DNA of 41,031 nt, taken from Candidatus Sabulitectum sp. (lineage in GTDB: Bacteria; Fermentibacterota; Fermentibacteria; Fermentibacterales; JCC-6). Shown one piece after another: positions 7,735 through 31,555 of the stretch (the first letter of the stretch is position 1; every line of letters starts with the position of its first letter). The stretch is from contig JAOZUR010000023.1 in NCBI GenBank assembly GCA_029938555.1, positions 1 through 41,031 on the forward strand. The letters are read 5' to 3'. The notes under the pieces were generated by a model, which saw only the letters and a list, made by a program, of their open reading frames with translations, was not told where the DNA came from and made no database searches. The position numbers and the translations under genes were made by a program.

Positions 7735-9300
7735 ATGGAAACAAAAGACCTAAGCAAAGTAACATCAATAGCGGTAAAAAACGAATCTGGACTTATTTTT
7801 CCTCTGGGGTCTTCAAAGGGCGAGAGCATTGCTCCATGGGTAACAGAAGGTAGAGAAGTTTATCGCAGGGGGCTAATTTTAGCTCTGGATTTGGCTGTAA
7901 AACGGGCATACCCTCATTGGAAATTGTGGGTAGAGCATTCAATTTCTCTTGGATATCGTTGCAGAATTGAAGGCATGAAACTAGGTACTGAAAGCCAGGT
8001 TTGTGCCAGACTTGATATAGAGTTGAAAAGAATTGTGAAGGAAGCTCTTCCAATTCAATACCGTAAAATATCATCAGAAGAAGCATTAGGCCAGGTTGGT
8101 GAACACAGTTTGTTACCAAGATGGCACATGGGTAAGAAATTTTACAGAGCAAATGTTCTTGGAGATTCATGGGCTTTTGCCATGGGCCCAACAGTACCTG
8201 ATACTTCATGGTTATCTGTGTGGGAACTTCGCCCTGCAACTGGAAGTTTTCTTTTAAGATTTCCAGGAAGTAAAGCATGGCCCGAGATAGTACCTTGGAA
8301 GGGTAACCCGTCTCTTGCCAAAGAACTTGACCTTGAAGAAAAACATATTTCAAGAATGAAAGTTCATACTGTTGATATGATGAACAGACGAATTCGTGAA
8401 GATGGTGGCAGGGAAGTTGTGATGATGAGTCACTTCTATCAGAACAGACGAATTGTTCAGATTGTCAGCAGACTGGATGATGAATTTCCAGAAAAGCGTA
8501 TTGTGATGATAGCAGGTCCTTCATGTAGCGGAAAAACTACATTTACAAGAATGCTTTCTACATATCTTCGTGCGCAGGGATTCAGCACTAGAATGATAAG
8601 TGTTGATAATTATTTCAGGAACCGTTCTGAAACCCCTAAACACAAAGATGGAAGTTTTGATTTTGAATGTATTGGTGCACTGAATACAGAATTGTTCGGC
8701 CTTCACATTAAAAAACTTATAGCAGGGGAGACTATTAAACTTCCTGAATTTAACTTTCATACAGGTGTAAGGGAAGATGACGTTACTCCCATGAGTTTAG
8801 GTAAAAATGAAATTCTTCTGATTGAGGGAATTCACGGATTGAATGACAGCCTTACTCCAGGTGTGGATGTGGCAGATAAATTTAAGATCTACATCAGTGC
8901 CCTGACAACCCTGAATATTGATCGCCTTACCCGCATGTCAACTTCAGACGGTAGGCTTCTTAGAAGGATAGTGAGAGACAGTACCAGAAGAGGATATTCA
9001 GCAACTGATACTATCCTTGGTTGGTCCAGCGTGCGCCGTGGGGAAAGAAAGAATATTTTCCCATTCCAGGAACAGGCAGACATGATGTTTAATTCAGCCC
9101 TTCCCTACGAGCTGCCTGTACTTAAACCATATCTAGTTCCTTTACTACAGGAGGTAGAAAAAGGATCAGAAGCTTATGGTGATGCTAACAGACTTTTAAG
9201 ACTTTTTGATGTTGTAGAGCATATCAATGAAGGCGTTGTACCCAGATTGAGTATTCTCAGAGAATTCATTGACGGTCTTCTTCTTGATTGGAGCGAGTAA
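7735..9300 (+). CDS. Uridine-kinase-like nucleoside kinase with ThrRS-like N-terminal domain
   Basis: 521 residues. The C-terminal part (about 255-465) is a P-loop kinase of the uridine kinase/phosphoribulokinase group: Walker A GPSCSGKTT near residue 262, SVDNYFRNR (the UdK DDFY-like substrate loop), LPEFNFHTG, and LLIEGIHGLN for Walker B. The N-terminal half resembles the second additional (editing-like) domain of threonyl-tRNA synthetase (KRIVKEALPIQYRKISSEEAL), as in a known class of long bacterial nucleoside kinases. The catalytic aminoacylation core is absent, so it is not ThrS. The likely role is pyrimidine nucleoside salvage using NTP. AAAGGA precedes the ATG, and the stop overlaps the next ATG as TAATG. 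Confidence 0.85.
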   Translation: METKDLSKVTSIAVKNESGLIFPLGSSKGESIAPWVTEGREVYRRGLILALDLAVKRAYPHWKLWVEHSISLGYRCRIEGMKLGTESQVCARLDIELKRIVKEALPIQYRKISSEEALGQVGEHSLLPRWHMGKKFYRANVLGDSWAFAMGPTVPDTSWLSVWELRPATGSFLLRFPGSKAWPEIVPWKGNPSLAKELDLEEKHISRMKVHTVDMMNRRIREDGGREVVMMSHFYQNRRIVQIVSRLDDEFPEKRIVMIAGPSCSGKTTFTRMLSTYLRAQGFSTRMISVDNYFRNRSETPKHKDGSFDFECIGALNTELFGLHIKKLIAGETIKLPEFNFHTGVREDDVTPMSLGKNEILLIEGIHGLNDSLTPGVDVADKFKIYISALTTLNIDRLTRMSTSDGRLLRRIVRDSTRRGYSATDTILGWSSVRRGERKNIFPFQEQADMMFNSALPYELPVLKPYLVPLLQEVEKGSEAYGDANRLLRLFDVVEHINEGVVPRLSILREFIDGLLLDWSE

Positions 9301-11189
9301 TGCAGATTATTCTGATTTTGTTGTCTTTGTACAGCCCTAGATTAAGCCCCATGGTTCTTACCAGACCTTTGACTCCTGCAATTCAACCTTTGTATCAAGA
9401 GTTTGAACTGGAACCAATTGATGTTTTACATTATGATCTGTCTATAACTATTGATAGAGAAAACGAAACAATTGATGCTTCCGCTCAGGTAACGTTTGTT
9501 CCCACAGAAGAGAATCTAACAGACTTCAGACTTTATCTGAAAGATCTTACGGTTTCACAGGTTACCGGAGTTTCTTCCTTCAGTCAGAGTGAAGATTCAC
9601 TTTTTATTACTCTGCCTTCACCTGCTTCAACCTCCGATACCATTGAACTGGTTATTGATTATGCAGGCGCTCCTCCATCAGAGCAATGGGGTGGCTTTCA
9701 TTTCCACCCGTATGTTACCTATCATATGGGGGTTGGTTTTGTCAGTGATCCTTCCATGGGTAAGTATATGTTTCCTTGCCATGACAGACCCTCAGACAAG
9801 GCTTCATTCGATTTCCACATTACAGTACCCGATACACTGTATGCAGTAGCTAACGGTGATTCTAGCGGAGTTACTGATAATTCTGATGGCACTCTGACCT
9901 ATCACTGGACTTTAGAGCAGGAAATGTCAACATATCTTGCTGCCATTAGTGTTGCTGATTATGCTGTTCTTCATGATTCAACAGATTCAAGAATCTCTTA
10001 TTATGTGTATTCCTGGGATGTGGAAGATGCATTAGGTTCTTTTGCTAATGTTGATCTGATGATGGCTCATTTTGAGGATGTTTACAGTCCTTATCCTTGG
10101 GATTGCAAGTTCAGTTATGTGCAAACTCCCATAGGTGATATGGAACACCTATCACAGGTGTATCACATTGCTTCTGCGGTAAACGGAAATACTAATTATG
10201 ACTGGCTTCTTGCCCATGAATTGAGTCACCACTGGTGGGGAAATTGTGTAACAGAGCGTTACTGGACAGAAGTTTGGTTATCAGAAAGTTTTGCAACATA
10301 CAGTGAAGCTATCTGGATGGAAAGTTACGGTCAGTCTGAATATATTGATTATATAACAAATAATATAATGAAACCATATTTGAACAGCGGAGAGTTGTTT
10401 CCCATTGTTGGAGCAGAAACCCCTTCAGAACTATGGAGTAGCACCACCTACCAGAAAGGTGCTTCTGTTCTTCACATGCTTCGACAAATAGTGGGAGATA
10501 CTGCTTTTTTCGCAGGATATGCAGCTTATTTTGATAACCACAGTTATTCTACAGCTTTAACCACTGATTTCATTTATTATATAGAAAGTCAGTACGGTGA
10601 TGAACTGGATTGGTTTTTTGATCAATGGGTGTATGGCGAGGGATATCCCATTTATGACATTCAAACTGATTGGGTGCAGCAGGGTTCTGACTGGCAGCTC
10701 ACAATCGGTATAGATCAGACACAGACGGTAAGTACCTTTTTCACAATGCCAGTTGAATTTCTAGTTCAGGGTGCAGGAAGCGATTCAGTAATAACGTTTC
10801 TAAACGATTCATTCGATCAAGAGGAAACTTTTATTCTTCCATTTGAGCCTGTTTCGATTGTATTTGATCCAGGAACAAAAATTTTAACAAGTTCTTTTCT
10901 TGGTGTAGATGAACAAACAAATCCACCATTGGGTGGGGTGGGAACCATGTATCTTGGCCCTAATCCTGCCACTTCAAATTCAACCATTAATTGGTTGGGT
11001 ACTGAAAATATGGTTCTTGAAATTAAGATTTATGATCTTTCCGGCAGAATTGTGCAGAAACAGATTTTGGGCTCCTCTGAAAGACATCTAAATCTTTCTG
11101 GTATTCCAGCTGGTACATATCTTGTTGATGCAGTTGCCCCGGGTAATGTAAGACAGACAGCTAGGCTTGTACTTTTACCGTCTATCTGA
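9300..11189 (+). CDS. Secreted M1-family metallopeptidase with T9SS-type C-terminal sorting domain
   Basis: 629 residues. I use ATG 9300, preceded by GGAG at 6 bases, instead of the TTG at 9288. A hydrophobic N-terminus (MQIILILLSLYS) suggests export. An aminopeptidase-N-like beta domain comes first. The catalytic HELSHHWWG (HExxH, near residue 306) then follows, with the third zinc ligand in WLSESFATYSE about 19 residues later. M1 enzymes remove N-terminal residues from peptides. The last ~80 residues (PNPATSNSTINW, IYDLSGRIV, IPAGTYLVDA) have the layout of a Por/T9SS type A sorting domain, so the enzyme is probably delivered to the surface or released. Translation is coupled to the upstream kinase gene; a strong terminator follows. 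Confidence 0.88.
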   Translation: MQIILILLSLYSPRLSPMVLTRPLTPAIQPLYQEFELEPIDVLHYDLSITIDRENETIDASAQVTFVPTEENLTDFRLYLKDLTVSQVTGVSSFSQSEDSLFITLPSPASTSDTIELVIDYAGAPPSEQWGGFHFHPYVTYHMGVGFVSDPSMGKYMFPCHDRPSDKASFDFHITVPDTLYAVANGDSSGVTDNSDGTLTYHWTLEQEMSTYLAAISVADYAVLHDSTDSRISYYVYSWDVEDALGSFANVDLMMAHFEDVYSPYPWDCKFSYVQTPIGDMEHLSQVYHIASAVNGNTNYDWLLAHELSHHWWGNCVTERYWTEVWLSESFATYSEAIWMESYGQSEYIDYITNNIMKPYLNSGELFPIVGAETPSELWSSTTYQKGASVLHMLRQIVGDTAFFAGYAAYFDNHSYSTALTTDFIYYIESQYGDELDWFFDQWVYGEGYPIYDIQTDWVQQGSDWQLTIGIDQTQTVSTFFTMPVEFLVQGAGSDSVITFLNDSFDQEETFILPFEPVSIVFDPGTKILTSSFLGVDEQTNPPLGGVGTMYLGPNPATSNSTINWLGTENMVLEIKIYDLSGRIVQKQILGSSERHLNLSGIPAGTYLVDAVAPGNVRQTARLVLLPSI

Positions 11190-22201: not shown

Positions 22202-22747
22202 TTGATTAATGAAATGCTAAGGGAAAAGTTGCTTAAAGCTGAAAAGAGAATTGCTTTTGTTTCCACTCAGACTACTGGTGTCATGGCTTCAGAGCTTGTT
22301 GCAGCATTAAAAGATATACGATTTATTATTAAAGCAGTTACTCCAGATATGGAAAAAAAAGTTGATGGGGTATCTGTTCTTTTTGTGGATGATGAAGAGA
22401 TTATTAGAAGAATAGGAGAGCAGATTCTTGTAAGAGAAGGTTATAATGTTCTTATCGCTTCTGATGGAATAGAGGCACTTGGTGTTTATGAGCAAAATAA
22501 GGACACTATTAAGTGTGTTATTCTTGATCTTGTAATGCCTCGTCTTGATGGAATGCAAGCATTTAGACAGCTTAGGCGTTCTGCTCCAAATCTTGGAATT
22601 ATTCTTACAACCGGTTATGGTGAAGAAGAAATAAGAAGGCGTTTTGGGGGTCTTAAACTACAGGGCTTTCTGCGTAAACCTTTTGGCGCAGCTTCTTTAG
22701 CTAATATGGTGAAAGAAGCCATTAGGCAAACAGATGTTAAAGGTTAA
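22202..22747 (+). CDS. Single-receiver response regulator with N-terminal helical extension
   Basis: 181 residues. I keep TTG 22202, which follows AGGAGA closely; the ATG twelve bases later is too far from it. Residues about 57-178 form a receiver domain: acidic pair in LFVDDEE, phospho-acceptor Asp in VILDLVMP, Thr in ILTTGYGEEE and Lys in LRKPFG. The first ~55 residues (MINEMLREKLLKAEKRIAF...) are helical and unlike a known output domain. With no DNA-binding output it probably acts by protein contact or as a phosphate intermediate. It is the first gene of the four-gene signalling/secretion-ATPase block and ends 3 bases before the hybrid kinase. Confidence 0.85.
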   Translation: MINEMLREKLLKAEKRIAFVSTQTTGVMASELVAALKDIRFIIKAVTPDMEKKVDGVSVLFVDDEEIIRRIGEQILVREGYNVLIASDGIEALGVYEQNKDTIKCVILDLVMPRLDGMQAFRQLRRSAPNLGIILTTGYGEEEIRRRFGGLKLQGFLRKPFGAASLANMVKEAIRQTDVKG

Positions 22748-22750
22748 TGA

Positions 22751-25700
22751 ATGATGGCAAAAAAAGTAGCTAAAGTGAATTCAGGGCGATCTGTACACCA
22801 ATTGTTGATGAAGATCTTAAGTGATTCAGGTATCGGTGCAATTGTAATCAGTGGTGATAAAGTTATTAAGATTAATGAGTCTGCATGTAAACTGTTAAAA
22901 GGGAGTTCAGTTGATTTTATAGGAGAAAGTTCAATAGAACTGCTTTCTGCTATTGCTAAACTAGGGGCGAAAATCCGAACAGAACATTCATCATTTAATG
23001 GAAATTCTTATGAGGTTGTTTCATTTAGTGTTAATGTAAATACCAAAGTAATTGATAATGAACGACGCAGGATTTTTAATGAGATGGACGATCTTTATTG
23101 TAAAATTGCCCTTGATGGAACCATTGTTAACATAACTCCATCTATATTCAGTTTTAGCGGATTTACCAGAGAAGATGTTATTGGTACATCTATTTATGAC
23201 TATTATGCCGATGAGGCACAAAAAAATAATCTTATTAGTGCATTAAGTAAATTTGGAAAAGTGAATGATTTTATAATAGATTTGTTCAGAAAAGACGGAA
23301 GTGTTTTTACCACTCGTGGCTCTATGCATGTTGTATTTGATGAACACGGAGTTCCTGTTTTTCACGAAGGTATTCTTACTGATATAAGTGCAGAGCAGCG
23401 ACTTGAGGATGAAATTTTTGAAAAAGAAGCTTTTTTTCGTGAAGTTGTAGAGAGCGTTCCTGATGCAGTTTTTACTATTGATGAATTTGGCATAGTTACT
23501 GCTTGGAATAAGGCGGCGGTTGAAGTTTTTCAGTGGACTGCTGAGGAAGCAATCGGTCGACCTGTTGATGAACTTGTTAATACTGTTTCAGAAAAGGATA
23601 AAATCCCCTCTGAAGACGTAGTTAATGGTAAAATTATTCGTGGGCTTGAATGTACTAGGCATGGAAAGAACGGGAAAGAAATCAAGGTAGCTATTTCTGC
23701 AGCGCCAATAATCGTTCATGGGAAAAACCACGGAGCTGTTGCAGTTTACACTGATCTTTCAGACCGAGAATCTATTCTTCGTCTTCTTCGCGAGAAGGAA
23801 GTAAAGTTTAGAGCAATTACAGAATCAGCTCAGGATGCAGTTATTATTATTGATTCAGATAGCAAAGTATCTTTTTTTAACACATCAGCTGAGTTAATGT
23901 TTGGTTACCATAAATCAGAAACTTTAGGGAAAAAACTTCACCATCTTATTGCCCCTGAAGAATACTGGGAAATGATTGAATTTGGGTTTGCTAATTTCAA
24001 GAGAACAGGGCAAGGTATGATGATTGGCCGAGTTGTTGAAATGGAGGGTAGACGCAAAAATGGAATAATGTTCCCAGTTGAACTTTCTGTTTCTTCTTTT
24101 TTTCTCAATGGAGGTTGGCATGCAACCGGTATTCTCCGCGATATATCAGAACGGAAGCGCATTGAACTTGAACTTATAGAAGCTCGTGAAGGAGCTCTTA
24201 ATGCAGCAAGAACAAAATCTGAATTTCTTGCAAATATGAGTCATGAGATAAGAACTCCACTTAATGCCATTATTGGAACTACAGATTTAATGCTGGAAAC
24301 AGATTTAACACAAGTACAGAAAAGTTTTTTGAAGGTAAGCCGAAATGCTAGTGATAATCTTCTGAATTTGATAAATGATATTCTTGATATTTCAAAAGTT
24401 GAAGCAGGAAGAGTAGAGCTGGAAGAAATTCCTTTTAATCTTTATGAAGAGCTTGAGAAAACATGTGAAACCCTTGCTCTACGAACTCACGAAAAGGGTC
24501 TTGAATTGAATTGTAGAATTGATCTTGAAACACCAAGGTGGGTCAAAGGAGATCCTTCTCGACTTAAACAGGTATTAATTAATCTCATTGGAAATGCTAT
24601 TAAATTCACATCTTCTGGTGAAATAACTGTTTCAGCTGAACTTTATGACTCAGGTAGGATTAAATTTTCGGTTATGGATACTGGAATTGGAATCCCCGAG
24701 GGTAAGGTTGAAGCAATATTCATGAGTTTTACCCAAGCTGATTCATCACACACAAGGCGTTATGGAGGTACAGGGTTAGGGCTTGCTATTTGTACAAAGC
24801 TTGTTGAGTTAATGGGTGGCAATATTACCGTTGAAAGTGAAGTGGGTGTTGGAAGCACATTTTCTTTTTATTCTGATTTGCCAGAAACCGACTCATTGGA
24901 TTTACCTGATTCAGTTAGAGATATTGACCTAAAAGGAAAAAAGATTCTTGTTGCAGACGATAACAAGAATAGTACTGTGATTTTGGGTGAAATTCTTACA
25001 AACTGGGGTGCCTTTGTGGATACAGCCAACGGGGGAGTCGAAGCTCTTCGAATGGCAAGAAGTGCGGAATATGATGTAATTCTTCTTGATTATGGAATGC
25101 CTGAGATAAATGGATTGAAAACAATAGAGTATTTTAAACAAGATGATTTATCAGTAAATCACATCATAATGATGCTTACATGTGAAGACAGTAATACACA
25201 CCTTAACGAATGCAAATTTTCCGGCGTTGAGAGATTTATATTTAAGCCGGTGAGACGGCAAGAGTTGATTCTTCAAATTCGAGGTGTTTTGGGTGGTTTT
25301 TTGCCATCTTCAGAAAATGAAACTTCTTCTTTTGTTGGTAAAACATCCATAGAAACTAAATCTCTTTCTATTCTATTAGCAGAAGATTCTCCAGACAACA
25401 GATTTTTAATACTAAAGTATACAGAGTCTTTTCCTTGGGAAATTACAATTGCAGAGAATGGAAAAGAAGCTTTAGATCATTATTTGCAAAATAAATTTGA
25501 CATAATTCTTATGGACATGCAAATGCCTATTATGGACGGATATGAAGCAACAAGATCCATTCGTGCTCATGAAGCCATATCAATGATCGATCATGTTCCT
25601 ATTGTGGCTCTGACGGCGCATGCTCTCAAAGAGGAAGTTGTTAAGTGTCTTGATGCAGGTTGCGATATTCATATATCAAAACCTGTTCGGAAGAAAAAAT

Positions 25701-26296
25701 TAGTAGAAAAACTTGACCAGTTGATGAAAATTATGGGTCCTCGTGAGGGAATACCACTTGCCCCTGATATAGATAATGATTTACCGGAAAAATTCGACTT
25801 CGTTATGGTAGAATCTGCAGACGATGAAGAAATTCCTCATACCCAAGAAGAGGAATCTCTTGATGTTGTTCATGAAGGTCCCGTGGCTCTTGTTCCAGAG
25901 GATCTTGAAACTCTGATAGAGAATAGACATTCAGACGATGAAGGAATTTCTGATGTTCAAGAAAAGGATTCTCTTGAACTATCTCAGGAAGTGCCAGTGG
26001 CTCTTGTTCCAGAGGATCTTGAAACTTTAATACCGGGGTATATGAAAAATAGATATTCAGATGTAACTAATATTAGACAGCTGGTTAGTGATGGTGATTT
26101 CAAAGAAGCTCAGCGCCTTGCTCATAGCATGAAGGGTTCAGGTGGAGGTTATGGCTTTTCTAGAATATCTGAACTGGGAGCCTCTATGGAAATTGCAGCT
26201 AAATCACTTGATGGACCAGAGATATTATCAGGCATTGATGAACTTGAAATTTATTTAAAAACAGTACGAATTGAATATGTTGACGAAGACGAGTAA
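22751..26296 (+). CDS. PAS hybrid histidine kinase with two receivers and a C-terminal HPt domain
   Basis: 1,181 residues. From the N-terminus: a weak PAS-like region (15-100), three clear PAS segments (about 105-215, 225-340, 350-475), and HisKA with phospho-His in FLANMSHEIRTPLNAI near 498. HATPase_c follows (about 600-715) with LIGNAIKFT, DTGIGIPEGK and GGTGLGLAI. Receiver 1 is at 730-850 (VADDNKNS, LLDYGMP, FKPV) and receiver 2 at 873-995 (LAEDSPDN, LMDMQMP, SKPV). An acidic linker has a tandem 38-residue duplication, and an HPt domain has AHSMKGSGGGYG near 1125. No transmembrane helix is seen, so it is probably cytoplasmic. A kinase-receiver-HPt chain is built to pass phosphate to a further receiver; the adjacent ATPase carries two. 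Confidence 0.93.
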   Translation: MMAKKVAKVNSGRSVHQLLMKILSDSGIGAIVISGDKVIKINESACKLLKGSSVDFIGESSIELLSAIAKLGAKIRTEHSSFNGNSYEVVSFSVNVNTKVIDNERRRIFNEMDDLYCKIALDGTIVNITPSIFSFSGFTREDVIGTSIYDYYADEAQKNNLISALSKFGKVNDFIIDLFRKDGSVFTTRGSMHVVFDEHGVPVFHEGILTDISAEQRLEDEIFEKEAFFREVVESVPDAVFTIDEFGIVTAWNKAAVEVFQWTAEEAIGRPVDELVNTVSEKDKIPSEDVVNGKIIRGLECTRHGKNGKEIKVAISAAPIIVHGKNHGAVAVYTDLSDRESILRLLREKEVKFRAITESAQDAVIIIDSDSKVSFFNTSAELMFGYHKSETLGKKLHHLIAPEEYWEMIEFGFANFKRTGQGMMIGRVVEMEGRRKNGIMFPVELSVSSFFLNGGWHATGILRDISERKRIELELIEAREGALNAARTKSEFLANMSHEIRTPLNAIIGTTDLMLETDLTQVQKSFLKVSRNASDNLLNLINDILDISKVEAGRVELEEIPFNLYEELEKTCETLALRTHEKGLELNCRIDLETPRWVKGDPSRLKQVLINLIGNAIKFTSSGEITVSAELYDSGRIKFSVMDTGIGIPEGKVEAIFMSFTQADSSHTRRYGGTGLGLAICTKLVELMGGNITVESEVGVGSTFSFYSDLPETDSLDLPDSVRDIDLKGKKILVADDNKNSTVILGEILTNWGAFVDTANGGVEALRMARSAEYDVILLDYGMPEINGLKTIEYFKQDDLSVNHIIMMLTCEDSNTHLNECKFSGVERFIFKPVRRQELILQIRGVLGGFLPSSENETSSFVGKTSIETKSLSILLAEDSPDNRFLILKYTESFPWEITIAENGKEALDHYLQNKFDIILMDMQMPIMDGYEATRSIRAHEAISMIDHVPIVALTAHALKEEVVKCLDAGCDIHISKPVRKKKLVEKLDQLMKIMGPREGIPLAPDIDNDLPEKFDFVMVESADDEEIPHTQEEESLDVVHEGPVALVPEDLETLIENRHSDDEGISDVQEKDSLELSQEVPVALVPEDLETLIPGYMKNRYSDVTNIRQLVSDGDFKEAQRLAHSMKGSGGGYGFSRISELGASMEIAAKSLDGPEILSGIDELEIYLKTVRIEYVDEDE
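25883..26029 (+). repeat. Tandem 114-bp (38-codon) duplication in the hybrid kinase linker
   Basis: The stretch GTGGCTCTTGTTCCAGAGG starts at 25883 and again at 25997, exactly 114 bases apart. Each copy continues almost identically (GATCTTGAAACT). Both encode PVALVPEDLETLI, and the surrounding residues are diverged copies. The second copy leads directly into the HPt domain. Confidence 0.85.
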
Positions 26297-28835
26297 AAAC
26301 GTACTGATTATTGATGATGATGAGGATACCAGAAATCTGCTTTCCCTGATTTTAGGGAAAGTAGGTTACGGTACCAGTACAGCTGAAAGTGCTGCAGATG
26401 CCATGAAGATCCTTACTACAGGTGATATTCATGTTATTCTGCTTGACTTGCTGATGCCTGGTATTAACGGTCTTGAATTCTGTGCTAGTCTTCAGTCAGA
26501 CAGAAATCTTTCAAGAATACCTGTGATTATGATTACCAGCAGATCTGACGATGAAACCAGGCGGGATGCTCTGAATGCAGGTGTTGCTGATTTTGTACCT
26601 AAGTCAGAGTTAAACAGAAAAACCCTTCGTACTAAAGTTAAAAAAGTGTTAGAGAGATCCGGTAGATGGAATAAGTTGGATAGTCCAGTACCTTCTGCAA
26701 GATTGCAGAATTATAAAGGTTTTGTTGAGTTTTTGAGAGATAATTCAACCTTATCCAGAGAAGACACTGCTACTTTAACTCTTTCACAGCCCAGAAATAT
26801 GTATCAGACAACAGCTGATATTGGTCTTGATTCTATTGAGACCGCCAAACTTTTGTCGAGTTATTTGCGTCTTCCCAATTACCCATATATTGATCCTGAA
26901 GCAGTAGAACCAGATATGCTTCCTGCTGCGTTCTCGAAGGCTCATAGAGTTCTTGCTTTAAAAGAAAAAGATTGCACACGATTTGTTGTATCGAATCCTT
27001 ATGAACCTCAACTTATTGAAATGCTGGAATCGCTCACAGGAAAAATTCCAACCTTAGGGATAACATGCCCTGATTGTATTGATGCTCTTCTTCGCAAGGA
27101 TGAAACTCATGATAATGAGTCTACTTTTGCTAATATTGGAACTGGTGAAGAGGAAGAGGAAAAAAACAAGAAGGATGATGAAGATGAACTTGCAGACTTT
27201 TCTGGTTCTATAGAAATCACGGAAAAGCCTTCAGAAGAAGATATAAGAAAATTCCCCATTAGATATATTTCAGACAGTATTCTGTTCTCTGCTGTGGCAG
27301 AGGGGGCTAGTGATATTCATATTGAACCCAAACCAGATAAAGTTCTTGTTCGATTCAGGGTTGATGGTGATATGAAGGATATGTTTACTCTAAAAAAGAA
27401 AACAGGAGCTGTTCTAATCAGCAGATTCAAGGTGCTGGGTGGAATGGATATTGCGGAAAGACGAAAACCACAAGATGGGCAAGCAGAGGCGAATATTGGT
27501 GGAAAACCTTTCAAAATGCGTTTTGCCACCACATCTACTCCGCAGGGTGAAAGCCTTATCGTGAGAATGCTTGATCTTTACGCAAAACCCCGCGAGTTGA
27601 CCGAGCTTGGAATGACCGAACAGCAATCGAAGGATCTTTACGAAGTTTCTAGTCAAACTAGTGGTGCAATAATAGTTGTTGGTCCAACTGGTAGTGGAAA
27701 GTCAACAACTTTATACAGTATGATTTCCCATCTAGACATAAAATCTCGTAGTCTTATGACAATTGAAGACCCTGTAGAGTACAGAATTGAGTACGCTAAT
27801 CAGCAACAGGTAAATGAAAAAGCTGGAGTTACTTTTGAAGCTTTGTTAAAGTCAGCAGTTCGTCAGGATCCTGATATTGTTTATCTCGGTGAGGTTCGAG
27901 ATGCTTTTAGTGCCAAAACTTGTCTTGATCTTGCAAGTACAGGTCACCTTACAATGGCAACTCTTCACAGTTCCAATACAACCACTGCATTGTTCCGTCT
28001 TGCCAGATTGGGAATTGCCAGGGAAGATTCAGCCGATAACCTTTTGTGTCTTCTTGCACAAAGGCTTATGAAGAGCTTGTGTCAAAAGTGTCGAAGAATG
28101 AAACCTATAACATTTGAAGAGAAAAAAATTCTTCTTCCTTTTATAGACAGAGAGGATTTACCAACAGAGCTACCACATCCTGAGGGATGTCCCAAATGTA
28201 ATTTCACAGGTTATGCAGGCAGACAGGGTGTTTATGAGTTGATGAGGTTTACTCCAGCGGTTACAAATATCATTAAAACAGCCGAATCAGTACCTGCTAT
28301 GCGTATTGCACTTCATGAAAAAGCAAATGTTTTTCTGCTTTCTGACCATGCAATTATGAAAGTAAAACTGGGACTTCTTTCGTTGGATGATGTGAACAGA
28401 CATGTGTTGCTTGAAGAACTACGGCTAAGTGGTAGACAAAATATTGATTTTGATGAAAAAGTAGTTGAGGTAGATAGGAAAAAACAGATTCTGCTTGTTG
28501 ATGATGACGAAGACTTCAGAAATCTTGCTTCAATACTGCTGGAAACAGCCGGTTATGATGTGGATCAGGCTTGTGATGGGGTAGAAGCCATTGTGACTCT
28601 TCAAACAAGTAATTATGATTTAATATTGTCTGATATCGAAATGCCAGGCCTTGATGGTTTTACAATGCTTCAGGCATTGCAGAGCAAGAATTTGGATACA
28701 CCTCTTGTATTTTTAACAGGCAACGACAGTATGGATAAAGAAGAAAAAGGATATGAATTAGGAGCAATTGATTACATAAGAAAACCAATAAGAAGAAAAA
28801 TGTTCTTAACTCGTGTAAAAAGGGCATTAAAGTGA
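26277..28835 (+). CDS. GspE/PilB-type secretion ATPase with receiver domains at both ends
   Basis: About 852 residues. ATG 26277 overlaps the kinase gene's end; the ORF-track TTG is six bases earlier. Residues 7-125 form a receiver: LIIDDDED, LLDLLMPG, SRSDDE, PKSE. Residues about 140-265 resemble the GspE/PilB N-terminal domain (LSSYLRLPNYPYIDPE, VLALKEKDCTRFVVSNP). After an acidic linker, the ATPase spans about 320-680 with SDIHIEPKPDKVLVRFRVDGD, Walker A VGPTGSGKSTT near 468, Walker B-like DPDIVYLGEVRD, GHLTMATLHSSN and a CxxC...CxxC zinc module. Residues about 735-852 form a second receiver: LLVDDDED, LSDIEMPG, LTGND, RKPI. Such hexameric ATPases power type IV pilus or type II secretion assembly. 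Phosphorylation control is inferred. Confidence 0.92.
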   Translation: MLTKTSKNVLIIDDDEDTRNLLSLILGKVGYGTSTAESAADAMKILTTGDIHVILLDLLMPGINGLEFCASLQSDRNLSRIPVIMITSRSDDETRRDALNAGVADFVPKSELNRKTLRTKVKKVLERSGRWNKLDSPVPSARLQNYKGFVEFLRDNSTLSREDTATLTLSQPRNMYQTTADIGLDSIETAKLLSSYLRLPNYPYIDPEAVEPDMLPAAFSKAHRVLALKEKDCTRFVVSNPYEPQLIEMLESLTGKIPTLGITCPDCIDALLRKDETHDNESTFANIGTGEEEEEKNKKDDEDELADFSGSIEITEKPSEEDIRKFPIRYISDSILFSAVAEGASDIHIEPKPDKVLVRFRVDGDMKDMFTLKKKTGAVLISRFKVLGGMDIAERRKPQDGQAEANIGGKPFKMRFATTSTPQGESLIVRMLDLYAKPRELTELGMTEQQSKDLYEVSSQTSGAIIVVGPTGSGKSTTLYSMISHLDIKSRSLMTIEDPVEYRIEYANQQQVNEKAGVTFEALLKSAVRQDPDIVYLGEVRDAFSAKTCLDLASTGHLTMATLHSSNTTTALFRLARLGIAREDSADNLLCLLAQRLMKSLCQKCRRMKPITFEEKKILLPFIDREDLPTELPHPEGCPKCNFTGYAGRQGVYELMRFTPAVTNIIKTAESVPAMRIALHEKANVFLLSDHAIMKVKLGLLSLDDVNRHVLLEELRLSGRQNIDFDEKVVEVDRKKQILLVDDDEDFRNLASILLETAGYDVDQACDGVEAIVTLQTSNYDLILSDIEMPGLDGFTMLQALQSKNLDTPLVFLTGNDSMDKEEKGYELGAIDYIRKPIRRKMFLTRVKRALK

Positions 28836-28841
28836 GGTATT

Positions 28842-29267
28842 ATGAAGGATGATTTTAGCTTTTCAATGGAAGATGCAGAGGCCAGCATAGAGAAGAATGA
28901 GTCTGATAAGGAAATCAAGAAAAGTAATAGTAATTTACTTAGAGTAGTTGGCATTCTCAGTCTTTTAGCTGTTTTTTCTGTAGTAATTATTAGATTTTTT
29001 ATTATAAACAGCACTAAAGGTGAACCAACATACGAAATTCCAGTAGCTGATTCAGCTTTTATTTTTAATAACATTGAAATGCTGGAGATGCATGTTAGAG
29101 AATACGGTTATTTCCCTGGTGATATACAAGACTTTATAAATTCGTCAGATGACGCAAGCCTTATTGTAAATGATGACGGGTCATTTACATACACAGAGAG
29201 CGGTATAGTTTATAGATCTGACATGGGGCTTCTTGGGCCATCCGGTGGGAACGGTTCTGACCTTTAA
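28842..29267 (+). CDS. Single-pass membrane protein with pseudopilin-like C-terminal region
   Basis: 141 residues, with GAGG four bases before the ATG; it starts 6 bases after the ATPase stop. A charged, Glu/Lys/Ser-rich cytoplasmic N-terminus (1-32) precedes one hydrophobic helix (about 33-56, LLRVVGILSLLAVFSVVIIRFF). The exterior part reads FNNIEMLEMHVREYGYFPGD and ends with IVYRSDMGLLGPSGG. The helix followed by an E-x-x-x-x-x-x-G-x-[YF]-P pattern resembles major and minor pseudopilins, whose residues after the helix read similarly. There is no short prepilin leader with Gly before Phe, so normal peptidase processing is not evident. Its place behind a GspE/PilB ATPase supports a link to the same machine. 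Confidence 0.62.
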   Translation: MKDDFSFSMEDAEASIEKNESDKEIKKSNSNLLRVVGILSLLAVFSVVIIRFFIINSTKGEPTYEIPVADSAFIFNNIEMLEMHVREYGYFPGDIQDFINSSDDASLIVNDDGSFTYTESGIVYRSDMGLLGPSGGNGSDL

Positions 29268-29329: not shown

Positions 29330-31555
29330 ATGACTATTGCTCTTTTCCTTTCCATACTTGGTTCATGGGTTTCTCTGGGGGGTGACTCTTATTCAGCTCC
29401 TGAAATTACATTAGTTGAAGCTGATATGGATCATGTGGTTATTCAGTTGAATCTTTCAGGTTATTCTTTAGAAACCATTTCAGAGTATTCACGCTTTGAC
29501 GTTGCTGAATACGATTGGGATATGGATGCACCGATTGGTGATCCTGAACTGCCACTTATACCAGTTGTAATAGGCATTCCAGCTGGTTTGGAAGCTTCAG
29601 TTACTATGCAGGATTCAGAATGGATAAGTGCTGGAGACGGGAAACCATATCCAGTACAGCCAATTCTTATGGATTGTGAAACATCTCCATTGGTTTTTGC
29701 AGAGCTTTCATCACAGCTTCAAGGGGTTTATCCTACACAGCCATTGAATCTTGATAAGCAGGGAAAATGGGCTGGAGTAAACACAATTGTATTACAAATA
29801 AGTCCTTTTTCGTGGGATGAAACTTCAGGAGAATTTCAAGTTGCATCTTCAATTACAGCAAGGGTCGACTTCTTAGGCACAAGAACATATCAAACTTCTG
29901 TTAGGCCAGAGATTGCCAATATGCATGGCTCAATGATCATTAATTACGATGAACTTGATATAATGGTTGATTCTTCTCCTGTTACTATGGATGATGATGT
30001 TTACTTATGTGTAGTTCCACCTGAGAACCTTGAATCAGTAACACCATTACTGGCCATGGTGAACTCGCTCGGGCATCATGTAAATGTAATTGAGATAGAA
30101 CCTGGGCTGAATAGTTATCAGGTAGCGTTAGCTATAAAAGATGTTTACCAGGAAGGTATTACCCGTTTTGCTCTTATTCCAGCCCGGCATCAGCAACTTG
30201 AATCAAAAAATTATGGTTCTTTCTACGGAGATTTTTACTACGCACAGATGACTTCAGATAATCTTCCAGATATTGCTGTGGGAAGATATCCAGGGAATTT
30301 TACACAGCTCGAGAATCAAACTGGAAAAACAATGTCTTACATTTCTTATACAGGTGAAGAGGGGCAACCTTCCATACCTACCAGTGTGATTCTTGCTGCA
30401 CACCAGGAAGATTATCCGGGTAAATATACAGCAAATAGTGAAGCTGTAAGAACTTGGGATTATGAATTGGCTGATATCGATTTCGAAACAGCTTATGCCG
30501 GTGAAGGTGGAAATGCCGCTGATATTTCTGCTGCTATAAACACAGGTGTTGGTATTGTTAATTACCGAGGTCATGGATCGGTTACAATCTGGCAGTGGAC
30601 AGGTGGATGGAACGCCGGTGATGTTTATGCACTTGTAAACACCTATATGCCTCCAGTTTTTAATGTTTGCTGCAGCAATGGAACCCATGATCTTTCATAC
30701 AACTGTCTTGGTGAAACATGGATGGATGCCCCGAATGGTGTAGGTGCCAGTGGAAATCTTGCTGCCAGTGCCCCGTCAGCCACAGTAGCAAACAATAGAA
30801 TGCAGAAAGTTTTATTCTGGCAGCTTTTTGATACTGGTAATACATGTGCAGGTGAGATGCTTGCGGCCACTCAGGTAGACCTTATTCAAACCCAGGGCGC
30901 GCCAGGTCTTGGCAATGCAAAAATGTACCATTGGTTTGGCGATCCATCAATGGACATTCAAACTGGTGACGCAGATGGCACGCCTTTTGCCATGGATTTT
31001 AGTGTTCCCGAAGCTCTTAATATCGGTGCTAATACACTTCAGCTTACTATTACATCCAATGGTTCACCTTTAGAGGGTGCTGTTGTTACCATAACAGATG
31101 GCGTGGGCAATCACCCTGATTTCCCAGAGTCATTTTATGAGCAGCAGATTACCAATAGTTCTGGCCAGGTCTGGTTGAATTTCACAGCACTTGAAGATAA
31201 AAACCTTTATTATGGCGTTAGAAAGCATAATTATGCCTCTGCAACAGGAACAATTGATGTGGTATCAACTGGAATTGAGACAGGGCAGAGTTATACAACA
31301 AATCTTTTACCGATAACCCCTTCTCCTGTTAATGGGCTGGCACAGATTTCATTCACATCCCCTTCAAGTGATCAGGTGAATATCAGTGTTTTAGATCTGT
31401 CCGGCAGAGTCGTTTCAACTATTCATGATGGTGCGGTGCTAGAGGGAGCAGGTTTTAGAACATTTGAAACTTCTGAGCTTTCCCCTGGTATTTATTTCGT
31501 TATGATGCACACAGCTCACACGACAATCACAAGGAAAATGGCTGTTGTCAGATAA
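29330..31555 (+). CDS. Gingipain-like C25 cysteine peptidase with T9SS-type sorting domain
   Basis: 741 residues from an ATG with GGAGG eight bases upstream. A signal peptide (MTIALFLSILGSWVSLGG) is followed by a propeptide-like region. The peptidase domain spans about 225-540: the catalytic His lies in NYRGHGSVTIWQW near 414 and the nucleophile in VFNVCCSNGTHD near 446, the His-Cys pair of family C25. An Ig-like domain follows, and the last ~75 residues (LPITPSPVNG, VLDLSGRVVST, LSPGIYFVMM) form a T9SS type A C-terminal domain. Gingipain-type enzymes are secreted and cut proteins at the surface; the residue preference cannot be read here. The next gene starts inside its end. Confidence 0.88.
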   Translation: MTIALFLSILGSWVSLGGDSYSAPEITLVEADMDHVVIQLNLSGYSLETISEYSRFDVAEYDWDMDAPIGDPELPLIPVVIGIPAGLEASVTMQDSEWISAGDGKPYPVQPILMDCETSPLVFAELSSQLQGVYPTQPLNLDKQGKWAGVNTIVLQISPFSWDETSGEFQVASSITARVDFLGTRTYQTSVRPEIANMHGSMIINYDELDIMVDSSPVTMDDDVYLCVVPPENLESVTPLLAMVNSLGHHVNVIEIEPGLNSYQVALAIKDVYQEGITRFALIPARHQQLESKNYGSFYGDFYYAQMTSDNLPDIAVGRYPGNFTQLENQTGKTMSYISYTGEEGQPSIPTSVILAAHQEDYPGKYTANSEAVRTWDYELADIDFETAYAGEGGNAADISAAINTGVGIVNYRGHGSVTIWQWTGGWNAGDVYALVNTYMPPVFNVCCSNGTHDLSYNCLGETWMDAPNGVGASGNLAASAPSATVANNRMQKVLFWQLFDTGNTCAGEMLAATQVDLIQTQGAPGLGNAKMYHWFGDPSMDIQTGDADGTPFAMDFSVPEALNIGANTLQLTITSNGSPLEGAVVTITDGVGNHPDFPESFYEQQITNSSGQVWLNFTALEDKNLYYGVRKHNYASATGTIDVVSTGIETGQSYTTNLLPITPSPVNGLAQISFTSPSSDQVNISVLDLSGRVVSTIHDGAVLEGAGFRTFETSELSPGIYFVMMHTAHTTITRKMAVVR

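Follow-up and report, generated by a model that had tools for sequence, protein, structure and literature searches.

Signals are known to reach the motors of type IV pili either through separate regulators or through cyclic diguanylate (c-di-GMP). In Pseudomonas the CheY-like regulator PilG of the Pil-Chp system acts on the PilB motor without transcription (PMC12632253), and in Synechocystis the CheY-like PixE does the same with PilB1, as cited in PMC7690835. Here we describe a locus at positions 22202-29267 of a 41,031-nucleotide stretch of DNA from Candidatus Sabulitectum sp. (contig JAOZUR010000023.1; the whole stretch is called the window below), where a candidate phospho-switch is built into the motor polypeptide itself and its putative donor, a histidine phosphotransfer (HPt) domain, is encoded next door. 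From its sequence we consider it reasonably probable that this is a phosphorelay with a pilus/secretion-type motor as the output, running from a kinase through the HPt to the fused receiver or receivers of an accessory motor that works on a shared PilC platform. A fused receiver with a neighbouring HPt points to direct switching of the motor by a sensor kinase, with no detour through gene expression.

The sequence-only reading, which a model had made from the letters of this DNA, took known pilus control by two-component systems to be exerted by separate regulators. This stands for PilG/PilB and PixE/PilB1, but an association of MshEN with receivers had already been noted, being mentioned in passing by Wang et al. 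2016, whose main text describes no such motor (PMC5013675). In open-licence papers we found no report of a T2SSE motor that has both a fused receiver and an HPt linked to it.

The window is contig C80 of a draft genome (G000; 3.03 Mb in 151 contigs, 93% complete), and the four genes in question follow each other on its plus strand. The first (22202-22747) encodes a lone receiver protein of 181 aa, of which residues 59-170 match Pfam Response_reg at 1.5e-22; a residue check found its sites intact (D63/D64, phospho-Asp D109, T136, K159), and such a lone receiver adjoins the kinase in Sabulitectum loci. The second (22751-26296) encodes a hybrid histidine kinase with three PAS stretches, HisKA, HATPase_c, two receivers (REC1 and REC2) and a C-terminal HPt, identified by Pfam and by residue checks. 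Hydropathy gave no transmembrane stretch in this kinase, which is classed as soluble, and it keeps HisKA H498, D780 and K832 of REC1, D922 and K977 of REC2, and H1125 of the HPt. The HPt domain itself (residues 1104-1170, 26060-26260, plus strand) was recognised by Pfam Hpt at 1.2e-7 and by our six-frame HPt profile at 5.8e-35, the latter match extending over 25994-26284. The third gene (26271-28835), which starts at TTG 26271 or ATG 26277 and overlaps the kinase stop, encodes an 854-aa ATPase of the extension type with the order REC - MshEN-like - T2SSE - REC, assigned by Pfam, AlphaFold2 and tree. The fourth (28842-29267) encodes a 141-aa single-span membrane protein. The HisKA His, the receiver Asp, the HPt His and the terminal receivers of the ATPase (D59, D788) are all intact and linked. 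Pfam and residue checks therefore bear out the tandem that had been proposed, a lone receiver, a PAS hybrid kinase with HPt and a double-receiver GspE/PilB-type ATPase, and the accompanying statement that all receivers keep the acidic pocket, phospho-Asp and Lys, and the HPt its His, is borne out for all phospho-acceptor sites in the window.

The ATPase carries an N-terminal receiver (26292-26645, plus strand; D15/D16, D59, T89, K111), an MshEN-like domain at residues 203-276, a T2SSE motor core at residues 330-710 (27258-28400, plus strand) and a C-terminal receiver (28488-28817, plus strand; D744/D745, D788, T816, K838), the receivers and the core being placed by Pfam and residue inspection. 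The core passes the Pfam cut-off for the T2SSE superfamily and has Walker A (471-477), the Asp box (499-504), Walker B (539-544, with its Glu in GE 540-541) and the His box (564-569, H566). The tetra-Cys set C604/C607/C640/C643, typical of extension and not of retraction ATPases, is kept in all aligned members of the family, as are the other motor motifs, single residues excepted, and no other part of the protein is as well conserved as the core. It is nevertheless neither a GspE nor a PilB by the NCBIfam equivalogs, since the cut-offs of TIGR02533 (367.8 vs 630.25 bits) and TIGR02538 (339.9 vs 675.65 bits) are not reached. The 24-residue c-di-GMP motif of MshEN, in the definition taken from the text of PMC5013675, is absent in strict or relaxed form from every receiver-ATPase member, and a PilB encoded in the same genome carries it twice.

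An AlphaFold2 model of the ATPase made from 51 sequences has a pLDDT of 89 and a pTM of 0.55 (an earlier model from 18 close sequences was poor, with a pLDDT of 64). The predicted core agrees with the crystal structures of Thermus PilF and Geobacter PilB (TMt 0.91-0.94). In the model the receivers are well formed and the relative placement of the domains, with such a pTM, is uncertain, so that a rigid docking of the receivers onto the core is not predicted with confidence. This would fit another explanation, according to which the receivers set the location of the ATPase, by polar recruitment, and not its catalytic rate, as PilG does for PilB, whose polar localisation in Pseudomonas needs PilG phosphorylation (PMC12632253). 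However, the cassette holds no gene for a localisation partner, and we regard this explanation as improbable.

The fusion is neither an assembly artefact nor the property of a single genome, because the full architecture recurs in 20/42 Fermentibacterota genomes and in other phyla. Within Fermentibacterota it was found in 11 of the 13 genomes of the window's own genus (g1, the window counted), in seven of g2 and in one each of g3 and g5, the copy of G006 being cut by a contig end; among these 42 genomes none from the other families of the order has it. When two conserved peptides were scanned against 84,980 species genomes, orthologues appeared in deltaproteobacterial metagenome-assembled genomes (MAGs) labelled Thermodesulfobacteriota/Myxococcota, in Elusimicrobiota, one Actinomycetota MAG, Macinerneyibacteriota, Gemmatimonadota, Acidobacteriota (Holophagales) and Auribacterota. 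The members of the strict family that were found come from MAGs only. In 19 representatives Pfam recognised T2SSE and Response_reg in 19/19 and MshEN in 17/19. A tree of 84 T2SSE domains, made by a quick method, places 27 receiver-ATPases in one clade (SH-aLRT 100, stem 0.65), separate from the own-genome PilB paralogues and from the T2SSE-REC proteins of Mariprofundus. According to these sequences we are dealing with a rare motor family of about eight phyla that was not previously named. A gene fusion limited to one assembly would have spoken against the relay as first proposed; the spread of the fusion over about eight phyla shows that it is not so limited.

The two receivers of the motor differ in their conservation. 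In the C-terminal one the acidic pair, phospho-Asp, Thr and Lys are present in every readable member (the first acidic position is D/E; L094 is masked), and D745, D788, T816, K838 and P839 are invariant among 19 members. In Sabulitectum and most other phyla the N-terminal receiver has the canonical residues, but Holophagales have Glu in place of its phospho-Asp and Auribacterota lack this receiver. In the sister genus Ca. Aegiribacteria (L048-L055) it has lost both phospho-Asp and Lys, which we count below against a simple relay to the motor. Since homologues from Aegiribacteria and Holophagales are without its phospho-Asp, the N-terminal receiver is not the family-wide switch, and by its sequence the C-terminal receiver is the sole family-wide candidate among the two. 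Of the two phospho-Asp residues that homologues were expected to keep, the C-terminal one is kept in every readable member and the N-terminal one is not. The natural absence of the N-terminal phospho-site from one genus, Aegiribacteria, tells the role of one receiver from that of the other.

The second line of evidence is the linkage of the motor to its supposed donor. With the six-frame profile an HPt was found directly upstream of the ATPase in 29/35 loci, that is in 19/20 from Fermentibacterota and in 10/15 other loci of the family, and in 0/51 control T2SSE loci (474 kb in total, of which just two controls hold a kinase of this type). In L082 one receiver gene stands between the HPt and the ATPase; in the same Desulfobacterales locus the ATPase is followed by a receiver protein with an HD-GYP-like C-terminal part (9072-10298), which hints at a c-di-GMP branch there. 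In L054, L055, L079, L087, L090, L092, L094 and others the HPt stands free, encoded by a small gene of its own that lies between those for the kinase and the ATPase, and the kinase layouts vary too (PAS-HK-REC-REC-HPt, REC-HK-REC-REC, HK-REC). Across phyla it is the linkage of HPt and receiver-ATPase that is kept, while the kinase architecture, the fused or free state of the HPt and the surroundings change.

A kinase orthologue is present in the ATPase-bearing Sabulitectum genomes and in G016, and both kinase and ATPase are missing from G009. In G003 the kinase stops at a contig edge, exactly where the ATPase would follow, and in G011 (L047) the kinase is in pieces. Kinase and ATPase do therefore co-occur in related genomes, as had been anticipated, throughout g1 and G016 with the contig-edge and fragmented cases set aside. 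Such linkage and co-occurrence are what a dedicated step from HPt to receiver predicts. The route from kinase through HPt to the receivers of the motor, as it was proposed from the window, gains from the linkage across phyla and from the invariant chemistry of the C-terminal receiver; to name both receivers as targets was too strong. In a kinase tree, built with no background set and with mixed supports, the sequences from Sabulitectum do not cluster with those from Aegiribacteria, which is suggestive at most, and we set the tree aside as a proof of partner swapping.

No platform gene (PilC/GspF) was found near the cassette. Every Sabulitectum genome but one has a match for it, and each of these has exactly one PilC gene, with two T2SSF domains, at a distance from the cassette; that of the window genome is apparently split over the contig ends C93/C81. 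PilC is also encoded by 14/15 other genomes examined, Mariprofundus included. Because the cassette brings no platform of its own, the motor most likely engages the shared PilC. Of T2SSE ATPases the window genome has four of the extension type, besides two shorter matches that are PilT-like (on C93, C66, C80 and C50), with apparently one PilC; the C93 end holds two PilB-type ATPases and one PilT-like. Four extension-type ATPases per one PilC gene, together with a cassette that lacks a platform gene, might also be expected if the receiver-ATPase were a regulatory or decoy paralogue without motor function, but all the motor motifs and the tetra-Cys are kept over about eight phyla, with the core as the best conserved part, and we hold the decoy to be very improbable. 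The likeliest reading of these sequences is that of an accessory extension motor, gated by a signal, which would use the shared PilC for a filament containing a minor pilin.

What such a motor may drive is suggested by the fourth gene, though not in the way first supposed. It had been called pseudopilin-like; its product is a single-span membrane protein, recognised by hydropathy, profile matches and alignment. It has no Pfam match, its one transmembrane stretch lies at about residues 32-50, after about 31 N-terminal residues, and the prepilin peptidase motif G-F-T-L-x-E next to a hydrophobic helix is absent from the translation, which together rule out a pseudopilin. In profile searches it matches the membrane proteins of L145-L150 and of L039/L041 at 5e-43 or better, and the alignment shows its gene to be a diverged copy (paralogue) of the one for a membrane protein that is paired with a genuine N_methyl prepilin. 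Besides the places named below, the pair occurs at one conserved locus in the Sabulitectum genomes examined, which in the window genome is on contig C94. The conserved unit of L145-L150 (3369-6570 in L145, the C94 locus) consists of the membrane protein, the prepilin and a permease-like protein of 625-652 aa, to which most add another membrane protein from that family.

Membrane protein and prepilin stand directly downstream of the ATPase in G004 and G010 (L039, L041), and in G020 the pair is beside the kinase L048_7. Most sister genomes are without a gene of the 28842 type at the corresponding spot. Some deltaproteobacterial cassettes close with a prepilin and a membrane protein that has a zinc ribbon; in L080, L081 and L092 a pair takes a comparable position. 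By profile comparison the zinc-ribbon protein showed no homology to the membrane protein of Sabulitectum, and we therefore claim for the deltaproteobacterial pair an analogous position alone. A 100-aa open reading frame on the minus strand (28772-29074), overlapping the last part of the ATPase gene and the gene for the membrane protein, is probably spurious.

Several observations weigh against a relay dedicated to this motor. Besides the Aegiribacteria receiver, the prepilin is unlinked to the cassette in the window genome. In G016 the ATPase has no adjacent HPt, kinase and lone receiver being elsewhere in the genome, and the six-frame profile found no HPt adjoining the ATPase in L080, L084, L095 and L096 (a further locus, L089, begins just upstream of the ATPase). 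Linkage is no proof of phosphotransfer. In G004, G010 and G016, moreover, the lone receiver and the kinase keep a C25 peptidase as neighbour, with the ATPase elsewhere. In the window this gingipain-type peptidase, which has a Por secretion tail, is encoded at 29330-31555; it adjoins the kinase and lone receiver in L153 (1-2025), L154 (3-1931) and L155 (2-1615).

As kinase and lone receiver stay by the peptidase without the ATPase, the relay may have another or an additional output. It could be supposed that it targets the lone receiver and/or the C25 peptidase with a secretion of the type IX kind (T9SS-type), the ATPase merely sharing the locus and its receivers being docking or oligomerisation modules. 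The three genomes where lone receiver, kinase and peptidase gene are together without the ATPase, the Por tail and the degenerate N-terminal receiver of Aegiribacteria would agree with this. Outside Sabulitectum, however, the linkage of HPt and ATPase survives with other neighbours, in G004 and G010 an HPt-coding frame still adjoins the relocated ATPase, and invariant catalytic residues in the C-terminal receiver are not expected of a mere scaffold, so we consider this supposition unlikely. A role in defence is unsupported, as a PADLOC search gave just weak receiver/P-loop matches to defence models.

The domains, residues, architecture, clade, HPt linkage, co-occurrence and single PilC gene are read from the sequences of these genomes; the path of the phosphate, what it does to the ATPase, the engagement of PilC and the part played by the prepilin are inferred from them. 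We propose that the soluble PAS hybrid kinase would autophosphorylate, and that phosphate would pass from its own receivers to the HPt and on to the receiver or receivers fused to the PilB/GspE-class extension ATPase, with the C-terminal receiver as the main switch and the N-terminal one as a second, lineage-dependent input. Phosphorylation may then alter how the hexamer assembles, how fast it hydrolyses ATP or how it docks. As an alternative extension motor the ATPase would engage the type IV pilus platform PilC of the cell, and might drive assembly or insertion of a minor prepilin dedicated to it, the partner of the small membrane protein. We may even suggest, tentatively, that this is a horizontally spread motor family in which receiver phosphorylation lets the accessory ATPase displace the ordinary PilB on the sole PilC, the kinase thereby choosing a (minor-pilin) filament without new gene expression. 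Whether signals reach the motor in this way could be tested directly in vitro with the HPt domain, the receiver-ATPase and a phospho-dead mutant, all three of them soluble.

Compared with PilB, GspE and MshE (T2SSE, PF00437), the receiver-ATPases share the MshEN-like N-domain, the N2D, the RecA-like core, the Walker, Asp and His boxes and the tetra-Cys, and they differ in the terminal receivers, the separate clade, the lack of an adjacent platform gene and of the c-di-GMP motif. In PixE-PilB1 and PilG-PilB a photoreceptor or a CheA-type kinase feeds a regulator that is a protein of its own, whereas here the receiver is in the motor and the candidate donor is a hybrid kinase with HPt. MshE is similar in that an allosteric signal is read by the ATPase's own domain, but it binds a ligand, c-di-GMP, with no phosphorylation. 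TadZ/CpaE of Tad pili also has a receiver-like domain fused to a pilus-associated ATPase, which we take to be a localisation ATPase of the ParA/MinD type with an atypical receiver and not a T2SSE motor. In Omnitrophota/Planctomycetales a third, unfused arrangement is seen, with a receiver gene of 261-287 aa directly upstream of a PilB-like T2SSE gene (L120 5596-8087, L125 5587-8087, L126 4616-7194). A further parallel is in Mariprofundus, where a T2SSE ATPase with a canonical C-terminal receiver (L097-L105, L113) has no N-terminal receiver, belongs to a different T2SSE clade and stands ahead of genes for CheW, an MCP-like protein and an HPt-bearing CheA-REC (L097 5881-12528, L101, L103, L104, L113). 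By sequence this is an independent fusion with convergent wiring and, as cultured strains are among its carriers, it offers a second system.

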